A DNA stretch of 64,000 nt. It comes from Janthinobacterium agaricidamnosum NBRC 102515 = DSM 9628 (GTDB lineage Bacteria; Pseudomonadota; Gammaproteobacteria; Burkholderiales; Burkholderiaceae_D). The translations under genes and the position numbers were made by a program. Positions within the stretch are counted from its first letter, which is position 1; each line of letters starts with the position of its first letter. Positions 34,951 to 45,774 of this stretch are shown one piece after another. The stretch is from contig NZ_HG322949.1 in assembly GCF_000723165.1 (NCBI RefSeq), positions 2,834,455 through 2,898,454 of the forward strand, read 5' to 3'. A model generated the notes under the pieces. The model worked only from the letters and a program-made list of their open reading frames with translations, was not told the DNA's origin and did not search any database.

Positions 34951-34985
34951 TTTCTCCTGGGTTAATACTGATGGGGGGGCGTGGA

Positions 34986-35861
34986 ATGGAATTGCGGCAT
35001 TTTCGATGCTTCCTGGCAGTGGCACGCTTGCTGCATTTCAGCCGTGCGGCGGCCGAACTGGGCATGTCGCCGCCGGCGTTGAGCAAGCAAATCCAGGAAG
35101 CCGAGAACCAACTGGGCACGCGGCTGTTCAACCGCAGCAAGCGTTCGGTGGCCCTGACGTCCGCCGGCCAGTTATTCGAGATCGAGGCGCAGCGCGCGCT
35201 GCAACAGTTTGAACTGGCGCAAGAAGTGGCGCGGCGCGCCGGACGCGGCGAACTGGGTCGGCTGGAACTCGGTTATGTGGCGTCGGCCGCCTATGCCGGC
35301 GTGCTGCAGCAACAATTCGCGCTGTTCCGGCGCAGCCATCCGGGCATCGAACTGCGTTCCAAGGAGTACCCGATGGAATTGTTGCCGGAGTTGCTGGACC
35401 AACACCGGCTCGACCTGGCCTTTGTGCGGCCGCCGATGGCCTATCCGGAAGGAATCGACAGCGTGGTGTTGCTGCGCGACCGTTTTGTCGTCGCCTTGCG
35501 CGACGACAGTCCGCTGGCCTTACTCGGCGACATTGCGCCGGCCCGGCTCAGCCAGGAAGCGTTCATCGTGCCGGAACAGGAACTGGGCACGGCGCAAGTG
35601 AGCCAGCGCGGCGGATTTACCGCGCGCATCAGCGACCGGCCCGGCAGCCTGCTGGCGGTGCTGACCGAAGTATCGCTGGGCGCCGGCTGCGCGGTGGTGC
35701 CGTTTTCCGTGGTCGATCATGTGCGCCTGCCGGGCGTGTGCTACCGCGAAATCGCCGGCCCGCCAATTGCTTCGGAAATCGCCGCCGCGTTCCGGCGCCA
35801 TGAAAAGGCGCCGGCGGCGCTGGCCTTCATCAACCAGATCAAGCGCATGCCGGCCGCGTGA
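34986..35861 (+). CDS. LysR-family transcriptional regulator
   Basis: The product is 291 residues from the ATG at 34986 (MELRHFRCFLAVARLLHFSRAAAELGMSPPALSKQIQEAENQLGTRLFNRSKRSVALTSAG in context), the classical LysR helix-turn-helix start. An effector-binding periplasmic-binding-protein-like domain follows (GRLELGYVASAAYAGVLQQQFALFRRSHPGIEL). The DLAFVRPPMAYPEGIDSVVLLRDRFVVAL region resembles BenM/CatR-like aromatic-responsive members. It is divergent from the DHA2 exporter, and autoregulation through the dyad between them is likely. Confidence 0.86.
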   Translation: MELRHFRCFLAVARLLHFSRAAAELGMSPPALSKQIQEAENQLGTRLFNRSKRSVALTSAGQLFEIEAQRALQQFELAQEVARRAGRGELGRLELGYVASAAYAGVLQQQFALFRRSHPGIELRSKEYPMELLPELLDQHRLDLAFVRPPMAYPEGIDSVVLLRDRFVVALRDDSPLALLGDIAPARLSQEAFIVPEQELGTAQVSQRGGFTARISDRPGSLLAVLTEVSLGAGCAVVPFSVVDHVRLPGVCYREIAGPPIASEIAAAFRRHEKAPAALAFINQIKRMPAA

Positions 35862-41109: not shown

Positions 41110-41143
41110 AAAACGGGCAAGTTCTACGGAGCTTGCCCGTTTT
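41110..41143 (+). terminator. Rho-independent terminator after the receptor gene
   Basis: A twelve-base perfect stem AAAACGGGCAAG / CTTGCCCGTTTT with a ten-base loop, ~38 bases after the receptor stop. The A-run and T-run flanks make it able to work in both directions. Confidence 0.85.
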
Positions 41144-41501: not shown

Positions 41502-41518
41502 CGCACCACTTCGGTGCA
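41502..41518. promoter_or_regulatory. NtrC-type binding site
   Basis: CGCACCACTTCGGTGCA contains GCACC-N5-GGTGC, which matches the NtrC consensus (TGCACC-N5-GGTGCA) at all but the first base. It lies ~60 bases upstream of the sigma-54 element. Confidence 0.65.
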
Positions 41519-41565
41519 AATCAGTCACATATATAAGCAATATAGGCTGTTTTTACACAATCCAC

Positions 41566-41581
41566 TGGCACGCTTCCTGCT
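41566..41581 (+). promoter_or_regulatory. Sigma-54 (-24/-12) promoter of the ATP-grasp/Anbu operon
   Basis: TGGCAC-GCTTC-CTGCT. The invariant GG (41567-41568) and GC (41579-41580) are 12 bases apart as required, with one mismatch to TGGCAC-N5-TTGCW. It is ~41 bases before the first ATG of the operon, with an NtrC site upstream. Confidence 0.7.
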
Positions 41582-41622
41582 GAGCTATCTTTACAACAGG
41601 CACAAGCGAGGGAAATCACAGC

Positions 41623-43077
41623 ATGGCGAAATTTTTTAATGAAATGACTGCGGATGGCATGGATGTGGCAACGAGCGCCAATGTTCGTGAGCACTATCGT
41701 GAATTTAATAGCTGGCTGAAACAGCAATCCCCCGAGACGATCGCCCGCAAACGGGCCGAGGCCGATCTCTTGTTCCGCCGCGTCGGCATCACGTTCGCCG
41801 TGTATGGCGATGTGGCCGGCACGGAACGTTTGATTCCGTTCGATACGATACCCCGCATCATCCCCGCGACCGAATGGGCGCAGTTGCAAACCGGGCTGGT
41901 GCAGCGGGTCAAGGCCTTGAATATGTTTATCCATGATATTTATCATGAGCAAAACATCATCAAGGCCGGCATCGTCCCCGCCGAGCAAATCTACAAGAAT
42001 GCACAATACCGGCCGGAAATGCAGGGCATTTCGGTGGCGTCCGATATTTACGCCCACATCGCCGGCGTCGATATCGTGCGCGCCGGCCAGGGCGAGTTTT
42101 ATGTGCTGGAAGATAATCTGCGGGTACCGTCCGGCGTGTCCTACATGCTGGAAGACCGCAAGATGATGATGCGGCTGTTCCCGGAATTGTTTACGCGCAA
42201 CAAGATTGCACCGGTCGATCATTACCCCGATTTGCTGCTCGATAACTTGCGCTCGGTCGCGCCGATGGGCGTCACCGATCCAACCGTCGTCGTAATGACG
42301 CCGGGCATGTATAACTCGGCCTATTTCGAACACGCCTTCCTGGCCCAGCAAATGGGCGTGGAATTGGTGGAAGGCAAGGATTTGTTTGTCAACGACAACG
42401 CCGTCTACATGCGCACCACCCGTGGACCAAAACGGGTCGATGTGATTTACCGCCGCGTCGATGACGATTTCCTCGATCCGCTGGCGTTCCGCCCCGATTC
42501 GTCGCTGGGCGTGCCGGGCTTGCTGTCGGTCTACCGCGCCGGCCGCGTCACCTTGGCCAATGCCATCGGCACCGGCGTCGCCGACGACAAGTCGATTTAT
42601 CCATTTGTGCCCGACATGATCAAGTTTTACCTGTCCGAACAGCCGATACTGAATAATGTGCCGACCTATCAATGCCGCAAGACGGCCGATCTGTCGTATG
42701 TGCTGGCCAATTTGCCGGACCTGGTGGTCAAGGAAGTGCATGGTGCCGGCGGCTACGGCATGCTGGTCGGTCCGGCGTCGAGCAAGGCGCAGATCGAGGA
42801 TTTTCGCCGGCGCCTGCTGGCCAATCCAGGCGGTTATATTGCCCAGCCTACGTTGGCGCTGTCGGCCTGCCCGACGTATGTCGACAGTGGCATTGCGCCG
42901 CGCCATATCGATTTGCGGCCGTTCGTGTTGTCCGGCAAGACCATTTCGATGGTGCCGGGCGGCCTGACCCGCGTCGCGCTGGAACAAGGATCGCTGGTGG
43001 TCAATTCCTCGCAAGGGGGCGGCACCAAGGATACCTGGATACTGGAAAAGACCAACACTAGCGCAGGAGAACTGTAA
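41623..43077 (+). CDS. Circularly permuted type 2 ATP-grasp protein (COG2308)
   Basis: The product is 484 residues. It belongs to the permuted ATP-grasp family (former DUF404/DUF407), related by fold to glutathione-type ligases. Recognisable blocks are KALNMFIHDIYHEQNIIKAGIVP, GEFYVLEDNLRVPSGVSYMLEDR, AYFEHAFLAQQMGVELVEG.DL, VDVIYRRVDDDFLDPLAFR, VVKEVHGAGGYGMLVGP and HIDLRPFVLSGKTI. It is the first gene of a four-gene operon and abuts the alpha-E gene with no spacer. Peptide-bond ligation of an unknown substrate is the expected activity. The sigma-54/NtrC region upstream suggests expression under nitrogen limitation. Confidence 0.88.
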   Translation: MAKFFNEMTADGMDVATSANVREHYREFNSWLKQQSPETIARKRAEADLLFRRVGITFAVYGDVAGTERLIPFDTIPRIIPATEWAQLQTGLVQRVKALNMFIHDIYHEQNIIKAGIVPAEQIYKNAQYRPEMQGISVASDIYAHIAGVDIVRAGQGEFYVLEDNLRVPSGVSYMLEDRKMMMRLFPELFTRNKIAPVDHYPDLLLDNLRSVAPMGVTDPTVVVMTPGMYNSAYFEHAFLAQQMGVELVEGKDLFVNDNAVYMRTTRGPKRVDVIYRRVDDDFLDPLAFRPDSSLGVPGLLSVYRAGRVTLANAIGTGVADDKSIYPFVPDMIKFYLSEQPILNNVPTYQCRKTADLSYVLANLPDLVVKEVHGAGGYGMLVGPASSKAQIEDFRRRLLANPGGYIAQPTLALSACPTYVDSGIAPRHIDLRPFVLSGKTISMVPGGLTRVALEQGSLVVNSSQGGGTKDTWILEKTNTSAGEL

Positions 43078-44025
43078 ATGCTGAGCCGAACCGCCGACCA
43101 CCTGTTCTGGATGGCCCGCTACACCGAGCGTGCTGAAAATACCGCGCGCATGCTGGATGTGAATATCCAAACGTCGATGTTGCCGCAATCGGCCGAAGAC
43201 GCCGAGCAAGTCTGGCGCGCGACGCTGGGTATTTCCGAGTTGCAGCAAGCCTACGACCAAAAAGGCGGCCTGATGCACGCCAGGGAGGTGCTCGACTTCA
43301 TGGTGCGCGATCCGAATAATCCATCGTCGATCCTGGCCTGCCTGACGCAAGCGCGTGAAAACGCCCGCGCCGTGCGCGGCACCCTGACGACGGAAGTGTG
43401 GGAAGTGCAAAACCAGACCTGGCTGGACTTGCAAAAGCGCTTGAGGACGGACTTGCTGGAAACCGCGCCGAGCCAGTTTTTTGAATGGGTCAAGTACCGT
43501 TCGCATCTGTCGCGCGGCGTGACGCTGGGCACCATGCTGAAGGATGAAGCGGTGCATTTCATTCGCTTGGGCACGTTTTTGGAGCGGGCCGACAATACCG
43601 CGCGCATCCTGGACGTGAAATTCCATGCGGCCAAGGAGGCGCCGGCCGACGACAGTAATCAGCGCGATTTTTATTACTGGGCGGCGCTGTTGCGCTCGGT
43701 ATCCGGCTTTGAAATCTACCGCAAGGTGTACCGCGACGTGATCACGCCGGAACGGGTCGCCGAATTGCTGATGTTGCGCGCAGATATGCCGCGCTCCCTG
43801 CTCGCGTGCATGGACGACGTGGTCGAAAACTTGCGCTGGGTACGCAACGATAGTTCGTCCGATACCGAGCGTTTCGCCGGCAAATTGCATGCGGAACTGA
43901 AATTCGGCCAGATCGACGACATCCTCGAAGCCGGCCTGCACGACACCCTGACCAGGTTCCTGGAAAACATTTACGAACTGGGCAACCGGGTCAGCCGCGA
44001 TTTCCTCGTTCCATTGGCGGCCTGA
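43078..44025 (+). CDS. Alpha-E domain protein (DUF403, COG2307)
   Basis: The 315-residue all-helical product opens MLSRTADHLFWMARYTERAENTARMLDV, the hallmark of the alpha-E family. FIRLGTFLERADNTARILDVKF is the internal second copy of the same motif. Proteins of this family always accompany the permuted ATP-grasp enzyme, sometimes as a fusion, and probably act with it. The ATG follows the ATP-grasp stop directly, and the stop overlaps the transglutaminase start as TGATG. Confidence 0.88.
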   Translation: MLSRTADHLFWMARYTERAENTARMLDVNIQTSMLPQSAEDAEQVWRATLGISELQQAYDQKGGLMHAREVLDFMVRDPNNPSSILACLTQARENARAVRGTLTTEVWEVQNQTWLDLQKRLRTDLLETAPSQFFEWVKYRSHLSRGVTLGTMLKDEAVHFIRLGTFLERADNTARILDVKFHAAKEAPADDSNQRDFYYWAALLRSVSGFEIYRKVYRDVITPERVAELLMLRADMPRSLLACMDDVVENLRWVRNDSSSDTERFAGKLHAELKFGQIDDILEAGLHDTLTRFLENIYELGNRVSRDFLVPLAA

Positions 44026-44834
44026 TGCAGTTATCCATACGCCACGAAACCACGTATGCGTACAGTGCGCCGCTGGCTTATACCATCCAGCAATTGCACT
44101 TGACGCCGCGTATCGAGCCGCAGCAGCGGGCCTTGTCCTGGCAGATGTCGATGCCGGGGCAATGCAACGCCTATACGGATGCTTATGGCAATTTGTCGCA
44201 CATGCTGACCATTAACGGCCGGCATGACTCGTTGCTGCTGCTGGTACAGGGCATCGTCGAAACTGTTTATCCGTATCAAGGCCGGCTGAATGCCGTCGAC
44301 CATTTGTCGCCGCTCTTGTTTACCGTGCCAACCCGCTTGACGGCGGCCGCGCCGGCCATCCTCGACCTGGCCGCGACCAGCTTGCCGGCCCGCCAGCAAG
44401 CGCCGCAAACCCGCCATGTATTACGGCTGGCCGAGGAAATCGTCGGCGCGGTGATCTATCAAAGCGGCGCGACGATGGTCACCAGCACCGCGCTCGACGC
44501 CTTGCAACTGGGGCGTGGCGTCTGCCAGGACCATGCGCATCTGTATTTGGCGTGCTGCCATGCCTGGGGCATACCGGCCCGTTATGTGTCCGGTTATATC
44601 GATCCGGAAACCACCGGCCACGCCGCCAGCCATGCGTGGGTCGATGTGTGGGTCGAGGACAGCGACTTTTCGGGCTGGGTCAGCATCGACGTGACGCATG
44701 CGCGGCTGATGACGGATGCGTATTGCCGGCTGGCCATCGGGCGCGACTACGATTCGGCGGCGCCGATACGCGGCGTGCGCAGCGGCGGCGGCAATGAAAC
44801 CATGACGGTCGATGTAAAAATTGTACCGTTATAG
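44025..44834 (+). CDS. Transglutaminase-like cysteine peptidase (COG1305)
   Basis: The product is 269 residues. The N-terminal bacterial transglutaminase-like domain (QLSIRHETTYAYSAPLAYTIQQLHLTPR) is followed by the catalytic core. That core has Cys in LQLGRGVCQDHAHLYLA, His in AASHAWVDVWVED and Asp in WVSIDVTHAR. The family includes papain-like peptidases and transglutaminases. In the conserved Anbu neighbourhood it is thought to process or cross-link the same substrate as the ATP-grasp/alpha-E pair. No signal peptide, so it is cytosolic. Confidence 0.88.
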   Translation: MQLSIRHETTYAYSAPLAYTIQQLHLTPRIEPQQRALSWQMSMPGQCNAYTDAYGNLSHMLTINGRHDSLLLLVQGIVETVYPYQGRLNAVDHLSPLLFTVPTRLTAAAPAILDLAATSLPARQQAPQTRHVLRLAEEIVGAVIYQSGATMVTSTALDALQLGRGVCQDHAHLYLACCHAWGIPARYVSGYIDPETTGHAASHAWVDVWVEDSDFSGWVSIDVTHARLMTDAYCRLAIGRDYDSAAPIRGVRSGGGNETMTVDVKIVPL

Positions 44835-44898
44835 TTTTGGATGCCCGGGGCTGGTGTAAAATTCAGCGGTTTTTAAATTTTATAAATTATTTGCAACG

Positions 44899-45774
44899 AT
44901 GACATATTGCATAGGCATGCGCCTCAACGAAGGCCTGGTTTTTCTGTCCGATTCCCGCACCAATGCCGGTGTCGATCAAGTCGGCACGTTCCGCAAGATG
45001 AGTGTGTTTGAAAACCCGGGCGATCGCATGATGGTCTTGATGACCGCCGGCAATCTGTCGATTTCGCAAGCGATCCGCCAGCTGGTATCGGCCCATGTCG
45101 ACGCCGATGGCCGCAGCATCTGGACCGCCTCGACGATGTACGAGGCGGCGCAAATCCTCGGCGACGCGGTGCGCACCGTGCACCAGCGCGAATCGAAGGC
45201 GCTGGCCGAATGCGGCATCGACTTTAACGTCAGCATCATTTTCGGCGGCCAAATCAAGGGCGAACGCTGCCGCTTGTTCCAGATTTATTCGGCAGGAAAT
45301 TTCATCGAATCGCACGATGAAAACACCTATTTCCAGATCGGCGAAGCCAAATACGGCAAACCGATCATCGACCGCGTTGTCAATCCGACCACCGCGCTCG
45401 ACGAAGCGGCCAAATGCGCGCTGATTTCGATGGATTCGACCTTGCGTTCGAATATTTCGGTCGGCTTGCCGCTCGATTTGCTGGTCTATGAAACCGAACG
45501 GCTGGCCGTGACGCGCTTCGTCACCATCGATGAAAAGAACCAGTATTTCCGCATGATCCGCGATACCTGGGGTGAACAATTGAAACGCGTATTCGAAGGC
45601 ATAGCCGATCCGGTGTGGGACGCGGCGCCTGACACCGCCTTGAATGTGCTGTCATCGCGCAATATGAGCAGCAAGCCGGTGCGCGTGGCCTTGCCCGAGC
45701 ATGTACATCCCGGCACTGCGCCTATCGGGCCGCTGCAATCGCTGGCGCAACAGTTTGGCGCCAAGCAGCAGTAA
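44899..45774 (+). CDS. anbu: Anbu, proteasome beta-subunit homologue
   Basis: The 291-residue product starts MTYCIGMRLNEGLVFLSDSRTNAGVDQVGTFRKM. Removal of Met exposes Thr2, the expected N-terminal nucleophile of Ntn hydrolases. The fold markers DSRTNAG and MVLMTAGNLSISQAI agree with the 'peptidase, proteasome-type' (Anbu) family, which is longer than HslV. It lies 64 bases after the transglutaminase gene in the classic order ATP-grasp, alpha-E, transglutaminase, Anbu. The short AT-rich gap may hold a secondary promoter. Anbu assembles into open-ring or helical particles; its natural substrate is not known. Confidence 0.88.
   Translation: MTYCIGMRLNEGLVFLSDSRTNAGVDQVGTFRKMSVFENPGDRMMVLMTAGNLSISQAIRQLVSAHVDADGRSIWTASTMYEAAQILGDAVRTVHQRESKALAECGIDFNVSIIFGGQIKGERCRLFQIYSAGNFIESHDENTYFQIGEAKYGKPIIDRVVNPTTALDEAAKCALISMDSTLRSNISVGLPLDLLVYETERLAVTRFVTIDEKNQYFRMIRDTWGEQLKRVFEGIADPVWDAAPDTALNVLSSRNMSSKPVRVALPEHVHPGTAPIGPLQSLAQQFGAKQQ

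Follow-up and report, generated by a model that had tools for sequence, protein, structure and literature searches.

Introduction

The gene set formed by a circularly permuted ATP-grasp protein, an Alpha-E protein, a transglutaminase-like protein and Anbu, a homologue of the proteasome beta subunit, is one for which structures have been solved and the function is not known. In Pseudomonas putida the operon is induced by nitrogen limitation (PMC7801951, PMC3325844, PMC8050072); the promoter of the ATP-grasp gene PP_2688 rose 3.7-fold upon nitrogen depletion, whereas that of the Anbu gene PP_2685 was nitrogen-agnostic (PMC8050072), and in the wild type PP_2686-2688 increased 11- to 15-fold while PP_2685 changed 1.12-fold (PMC7801951). 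The change in PP_2685 was 4.81-fold in a relA/spoT strain and 1.45-fold in an rpoN strain (PMC7801951), and elsewhere Anbu has been described as constitutively expressed in moderate amounts (PMC5666114). Furthermore, COG3484 is listed in a survey of the sigma-54 regulon (PMC12316311), and the genes I35_5080-5083 of Burkholderia cenocepacia H111, which showed 6.0- to 9.4-fold lower expression when ntrC was mutated, belong to the targets that NtrC and sigma-54 have in common (PMC5491218). Nitrogen control is thus already known, both from the induction of PP_2685-2688 and from the NtrC/sigma-54 dependence of the related B. cenocepacia cluster. Here, the regulatory region of the same four-gene set was analyzed in Janthinobacterium agaricidamnosum NBRC 102515 = DSM 9628, within a stretch of 64,000 nucleotides (the window; NZ_HG322949.1, positions 2,834,455 to 2,898,454, forward strand).

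In Yersinia bercovieri, the ATP-grasp protein is reported to free phosphate from ATP (PMC6376114). In the available parts of that report, no tested peptide was cleaved by the Y. bercovieri Anbu (YbAnbu), which was without peptidase activity, and neither specific binding to nor a complex with its operon partners was detected; a role of Anbu in tagging or degradation is quoted there as a hypothesis from the literature (PMC6376114).

The original prediction, made from the letters of the window, was that the set forms an operon with a sigma-54 promoter and an NtrC box, and that it is an NtrC-controlled system of peptide tagging or degradation for nitrogen starvation. In this study, promoter and box were compared with chance expectation, with other sites in the same genome and with orthologous loci. 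The results make it likely that the operon head carries a sigma-54/NtrC promoter serving a three-gene core with read-through into Anbu, and that Anbu has in addition a promoter of its own, probably constitutive.

Promoter and NtrC box at the operon head

The promoter TGGCACGCTTCCTGCT has its GG at 41567-8 and its GC at 41579-80, with starts 12 bases apart, and the ATG of the ATP-grasp gene (41623) lies 41 nt downstream, as originally predicted (Table 1). It has a GG-N10-GC core in a TGGCACG-N4-TTGCW context, with one mismatch to TGGCACNNNNNTTGCW, and it scored 17.2 with a sigma-54 matrix that approximates a published consensus; the transcription start would be near 41592. The palindrome GCACC-N5-GGTGC was also found, at 41503-41517, although 48 nt rather than about 60 separate the box from the promoter. 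Its centre is 56 nt from the -24 motif and approximately at -82 relative to the predicted start. The full box CGCACCACTTCGGTGCA agrees with 12 of the 14 fixed positions of the 17 bp NtrC consensus TGCACCAnnnTGGTGCA (PMC8743547). Both regulators are encoded in the genome: rpoN matched TIGR02395 with 465.9 bits (cut-off 277.35) and ntrC matched TIGR01818 with 629.5 bits (cut-off 558.6), the latter being the one of nine matches to the NtrC-family model that exceeded the cut-off.

Either element alone is weak evidence. Sigma-54-like sites with at most two mismatches showed no excess in the window, with 42 sites where 46.4 were expected, and the highest sigma-54 score belonged to 35020-35035 (+), which falls in the beginning of an open reading frame (34971-35861) read as a LysR-type gene. 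That site is probably a chance match and a caution against single-motif calls, and the sigma-54 site by itself was rejected as evidence. NtrC-like sites with at most one mismatch numbered nine against 5.5 expected, a count reached in 7 of 100 shuffles. A single NtrC-like box is common, since perfect GCACC-N5-GGTGC occurs 49 times in the 5.95 Mb genome (ten times for the reversed-pattern control). The weight-matrix scan suggested with the original prediction singled out CGCACCACTTCGGTGCA, the best NtrC match of the window by 3.8 bits, and placed the best sigma-54 site elsewhere. The pair together, however, is beyond chance: a box and promoter of equal quality, 40-130 bp apart, appeared in none of 200 first-order Markov randomizations of the window.

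The same genome was then searched for a relaxed box followed by TGG-N9-TGC at 25-55 or 56-86 nt, which gave 7 and 13 places, respectively, compared with 2 and 5 for the reversed patterns. In 6 of these 20 places the sigma-54 matrix score was at least 12.8. One of the six is the Anbu-cluster operon itself (17.2), and of the other five, three precede nitrogen-related genes (Table 1). The pair at L212 may serve a small gene or RNA that is not annotated, or may have arisen by chance.

Conservation among relatives

The ATP-grasp gene was found in 83 of 116 Oxalobacteraceae genomes (84 places), and 70 of the 84 places were studied. Within Janthinobacterium, all six loci have the promoter, and all six have an NtrC box 30-130 bp above the -24 element, where 0.01-0.07 would be expected. 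Across the family, 50 of the 70 loci have a site scoring at least 11 in the 400 bp ahead of the ATP-grasp gene; about 3.6 are expected from Markov controls, and the coding and reverse-strand controls gave 0/70 and 1/70. Conservation of the box across Oxalobacteraceae was rejected, as a clear box 30-130 bp above the best site occurs in only 2 of 64 loci outside the genus; within the family the box thus does not pass the conservation check set with the original prediction, although it reappears in Pseudomonas.

Beyond the family, 60 of 144 Anbu-bearing genomes were sampled, and in 40 of these the ATP-grasp gene precedes Anbu in the same orientation. Promoters scoring at least 11.5 within 250 bp were present in 4/7 other betaproteobacterial, 11/14 gammaproteobacterial and 8/19 alphaproteobacterial loci (coding and reverse-strand controls both 0/40), and NtrC boxes in 2/7 of the betaproteobacterial and, depending on the threshold, 3-4/14 of the gammaproteobacterial loci. 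Among named proteobacterial loci, taken as the best 80 of 594 relatives, a site of at least 11 was found in 62/80 (coding 0/80, reverse strand 4/80) and a box of at least 10 accompanied the promoter at 40-130 bp in 23/80. This sample leans towards Pseudomonas because the query alignment begins with a Pseudomonas-like sequence. Its 15 Pseudomonas loci, which exclude KT2440, include 12 promoters of at least 14 and nine boxes of at least 10 exactly 60 bp above the -24 element.

The promoter is linked to the ATP-grasp gene. Oxalobacteraceae loci keep it though the upstream neighbour changes. In 11 Comamonadaceae-like genomes, so assigned by inference, Anbu is apart from the ATP-grasp gene; with 540 bp scanned in each, the best site at the ATP-grasp start scored at least 11 in five. 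A site lies 35-48 bp before the expected ATP-grasp start in 9/11 and has a TTGCT end in 10/11. Anbu genes without a same-strand cluster upstream have a site of at least 11 in 1 of 20 cases. Fused ATP-grasp paralogues were tried as carriers of the same promoter and rejected (0/12 at 11 or above, highest 9.6).

A separate arrangement was seen in the genus that contains Glaciimonas, where in four of five loci (L030, L031, L032 and L035) a gene read as cupin-like stands between a canonical sigma-54 site and the ATP-grasp gene. The site, ahead of the cupin-like gene, scores 15.6-18.9 in these four and is 877-908 bp upstream of the ATP-grasp gene, as though the operon had acquired a new first gene; in the fifth locus, a site scoring 14.5 was found at -215.

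The -12 element in Oxalobacteraceae

In 42 of the 70 Oxalobacteraceae loci (listed within L023-L086), the -12 element reads TTGAT (30), TTGTT (10) or TTGAA (2); with the -12 C replaced by A or T, these sites are called sigma-54-like only. The form is nearly confined to this operon: of the 15 copies of TGGCAYGNTTCTTGWT in 60 family genomes, 14 are at the Anbu-cluster operon, while canonical TGGCACGNNNNTTGCW sites are present in 53 of the same 60 genomes. The sole match to TGGCACGTTTCTTGAT away from the operon in the 60 genomes is L198 (G013:C45:60015-60030). The -12 element of Escherichia coli pspA is of the TTGT type, and by analogy the non-canonical sites may still be sigma-54 promoters. A non-canonical -12 can also go with a strong box: L275 (Pseudoduganella) has TTGTG and a box of 16.1 at 68 bp, and L276, from a metagenome-assembled genome of Burkholderiales, has TTGTT and a box of 16.5 at 69 bp.

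A gene read as acetate-permease-like lies upstream in 19 of the 42 TTGWT loci. Degenerate boxes nearer the promoter, with scores of at least 7.5, were present in 6 of 23 TTGWT loci (0.6 expected) and in none of the 19 loci that follow the permease gene. The ATP-grasp tree, with support that is not settled, nests the canonical form of Janthinobacterium among rows of the TTGWT type.

The gap ahead of Anbu

The median gap is 3 nt between the ATP-grasp and Alpha-E genes (n = 157) and 7 nt between the Alpha-E and transglutaminase genes (n = 113). Between the transglutaminase gene and Anbu it is 56 nt (n = 86), and a gap of 10 nt or less occurs in 5/86. Of 25 Oxalobacteraceae rows in which Anbu follows a transglutaminase gene (window included), 24 have a TANAAT element in this gap at a distance of 31-42 nt from Anbu, where 1.5 would be expected and the reverse strand gave two; L082 and L269 among these rows are of the same species, and L017-L046, which extend just 1.5 kb beyond the ATP-grasp gene, were excluded. 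Counting all Oxalobacteraceae loci tested, the element precedes Anbu in 28/33, and it precedes the ATP-grasp, Alpha-E and transglutaminase genes in 0/48, 0/46 and 0/34, respectively. It was found before Anbu in 12 of 45 other beta- and gammaproteobacterial rows (1.5 expected), in 0/18 alphaproteobacterial rows and before 0/11 of the lone Anbu genes of Comamonadaceae-like genomes. By eye, no conserved -35 element was recognized ahead of it.

These counts suggest that Anbu may have a promoter of its own in the gap, alongside read-through, which agrees with the nitrogen-agnostic PP_2685 promoter and the constitutive expression of Anbu described in the literature. A sigma-54 site before Anbu itself was considered and rejected, since none of 87 Anbu genes behind a transglutaminase gene has one of at least 11 within 150 bp. 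A weak terminator-like hairpin with a T run at 44850-44867 (+) overlaps the -10-like element; hits of this kind are no more frequent than expected.

Genes of the cluster

The gene set named in the original prediction was recovered in full, with Pfam matches to CP_ATPgrasp_2, Alpha-E, Transglut_core and Proteasome and PDB matches to Anbu (Table 1). The Proteasome match barely exceeds its cut-off (22.8 versus 22.4 bits); the PDB matches, of which three carry the label Anbu and two the label Peptidase, have E values from 4.2e-89 to 1.1e-62. Among aligned homologues, Thr1 of Anbu is conserved in 122/123 and Asp17 and Lys32 each in 123/123, and the C, H and D residues of the transglutaminase-like protein in 131/133, 131/133 and 133/133. 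Residues 17-28 and 169-180 of the Alpha-E protein are near-identical (ERAENTARMLDV and ERADNTARILDV, one per half), which suggests an internal duplication of the helical bundle. Upstream of the operon, a hairpin CGGGCAAG...CTTGCCCG followed by TTTT was noted by eye at 41114-41139 (+), 3' of a TonB-receptor-like gene; it is probably the terminator of that gene and would set it apart from the operon.

Table 1. Features of the Anbu-cluster locus (window positions) and box-promoter pairs elsewhere in the same genome; pLDDT, predicted local distance difference test.
Feature	Position	Strand	Evidence or score
NtrC-like palindrome CGCACCACTTCGGTGCA	41502..41518	+	Pattern and matrix scan; boxes in genus loci
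Sigma-54-type -24/-12 promoter TGGCACGCTTCCTGCT	41566..41581	+	Pattern and matrix scan; orthologue conservation
Circularly permuted ATP-grasp protein, head gene	41623..43077	+	CP_ATPgrasp_2, Pfam PF14403 E 4.7e-169; PDB 3n6x E 1.1e-230
Alpha-E protein, all-helical in model	43078..44025	+	Pfam PF04168 E 2.1e-98; model pLDDT 91
Transglutaminase-like protein, C167/H203/D222	44025..44834	+	Pfam PF01841 (Transglut_core)/PF08379
TAAAAT, -10-like element of putative separate Anbu promoter	44857..44862	+	TANAAT conservation
Anbu, proteasome beta-subunit homologue, Thr1/Asp17/Lys32	44899..45774	+	PDB 5loy, 5nyw, 5nyj, 5nyf, 5lox
Same-genome pair before gene for NMT1_2 protein (nitrate/sulfonate transporter type)			Score 18.9
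Same-genome pair L212, strong NtrC-like and sigma-54-like; no clear gene directly downstream	G000:C1:977768-977860		Score 17.0
Same-genome pair before ureD			Score 15.8
Same-genome pair, no evident nitrogen gene			Score 13.8
Same-genome pair before NirD-like gene			Score 12.8; NCBIfam 53.2, below cut-off 74.65

Discussion

In the arrangement that we consider likely, phosphorylated NtrC would, under nitrogen limitation, bind the box near -82 and drive sigma-54 RNA polymerase at the -24/-12 element. Transcription would cover the closely packed core of ATP-grasp, Alpha-E and transglutaminase genes and by read-through reach Anbu, which would additionally be transcribed from a separate promoter in the gap that is probably constitutive. 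The ATP-grasp enzyme may make an amide bond, the transglutaminase-like enzyme may form or cleave one, and Anbu, as an N-terminal-Thr hydrolase, may open what is made or conjugates of it; under nitrogen shortage, the set would thereby build and recycle a peptide or protein mark that contains nitrogen. No substrate is claimed, and the product is deduced from the gene types. NtrC control as originally predicted finds support at the operon head, in the conservation, the co-occurrence with nitrogen genes, the presence of ntrC and rpoN and the induction in P. putida; it carries over less well to Anbu, which is spaced off and has a -10-like element of its own.

Several observations weigh against this arrangement. 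The box is rare in Oxalobacteraceae outside the genus, as given above, and was found at 30-130 bp in 0/19 alphaproteobacterial loci. Among the 11 genomes in which Anbu lies apart, the other six have ATP-grasp promoters of just 8.7-10.1, a range that overlaps that of the unrelated paralogues (up to 9.6); all such scores depend on the approximate sigma-54 matrix. Two of the six best same-genome pairs have no evident nitrogen gene. In the P. putida rpoN mutant, PP_2686-2688 were still up 14- to 20-fold (PMC7801951, Table 2). Since urtA and nasA were likewise induced in that mutant (PMC7801951), the strain had lost none of these responses. Finally, Anbu mRNA rose 11.1-fold upon nitrogen limitation (PMC3325844) and by a log2 value of 4.44 on nitrate versus ammonium (PMC8050072) in P. 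putida, so that read-through or other control must be allowed for.

A more far-reaching version, which is put forward tentatively and is less likely than not, separates the parts further: the ATP-grasp/Alpha-E/transglutaminase core would be a nitrogen-starvation machine, and Anbu a constitutive hydrolase loosely joined to it by read-through or independent of it. The core promoter of Oxalobacteraceae would have drifted to the TTGAT/TTGTT -12 that is nearly unique to the operon, with the box mostly lost, and Janthinobacterium would have regained the canonical form and a clear box.

The opposite simplification, one transcription unit under NtrC that serves, through Anbu, to tag peptides or degrade proteins during nitrogen starvation, appears unlikely. 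Gene order, the tagging and degradation hypotheses in the literature (PMC6376114) and the rise of the Anbu transcript in two P. putida data sets (PMC8050072, PMC3325844) speak for it; however, the gap and the -10-like element ahead of Anbu, the nitrogen-agnostic PP_2685 promoter (PMC8050072) and the near-constant PP_2685 level beside strongly induced PP_2686-2688 in the wild type (PMC7801951) do not fit, and Anbu without a same-strand cluster rarely has the promoter. Tagging or degradation, as the original prediction had it, is moreover a literature hypothesis that sits uneasily with a YbAnbu that showed neither peptidase activity nor a detected partner complex (PMC6376114). Still less probable is a sigma-54 promoter that answers to another enhancer-binding protein in most lineages and to NtrC in only some. 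The absence of the box from most Oxalobacteraceae and from all 19 alphaproteobacterial loci, where a -24/-12-like element is often retained, would accord with such a scheme, as would the several NtrC-family proteins of the genome, but both the genus and Pseudomonas have boxes suitably far from the promoter, and box and promoter mark further nitrogen genes in the same genome. That the two elements are chance matches to degenerate consensus patterns is very improbable. Neither motif alone is clearly over expectation in the window, and its best sigma-54-like site is inside a coding region; nevertheless, a chance origin of the pair was rejected, being contradicted by the randomized windows and by conservation ahead of the ATP-grasp gene despite varying upstream neighbours.

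With nitrogen control known beforehand, two refinements are worth testing: the promoter of Anbu itself and the family-specific -12 element. If the arrangement preferred here, a nitrogen-controlled core with a separately promoted Anbu, is true, the product of the ATP-grasp, Alpha-E and transglutaminase proteins should be looked for in nitrogen-starved cells, and Anbu in any condition. A report that the Anbu operon is induced should not be equated with induction of Anbu.

The closest described system is PP_2685-PP_2688 of P. putida KT2440, which has the same four gene types and a nitrogen-responsive ATP-grasp promoter. It is compared here through other Pseudomonas loci, nine of which have the box 60 bp above the promoter rather than 56 as in the window, and the -10-like Anbu element was tested mainly in Oxalobacteraceae. 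The B. cenocepacia genes I35_5080-5083 share with the window the DUF404/407 (ATP-grasp), DUF403 (Alpha-E) and transglutaminase-domain genes; unlike the window, this group encodes a large transglutaminase-domain protein and lacks Anbu, and nitrogen control is therefore not tied to Anbu. The Anbu proteins of Pseudomonas aeruginosa, Y. bercovieri and Hyphomicrobium resemble that of the window in Thr1/Asp17/Lys32 and in their related solved structures; the available parts of the papers on them deal with structure and activity tests and cite the nitrogen induction in P. putida, and no promoter is described in those parts (PMC6376114, PMC5666114). In the NtrC/sigma-54 regulons, such as those of urease and nitrate/nitrite uptake, the same type of box and promoter stands before the target genes, as it does before such genes in the genome of the window; the Anbu-cluster operon differs from these targets in not being an assimilation gene of known function.

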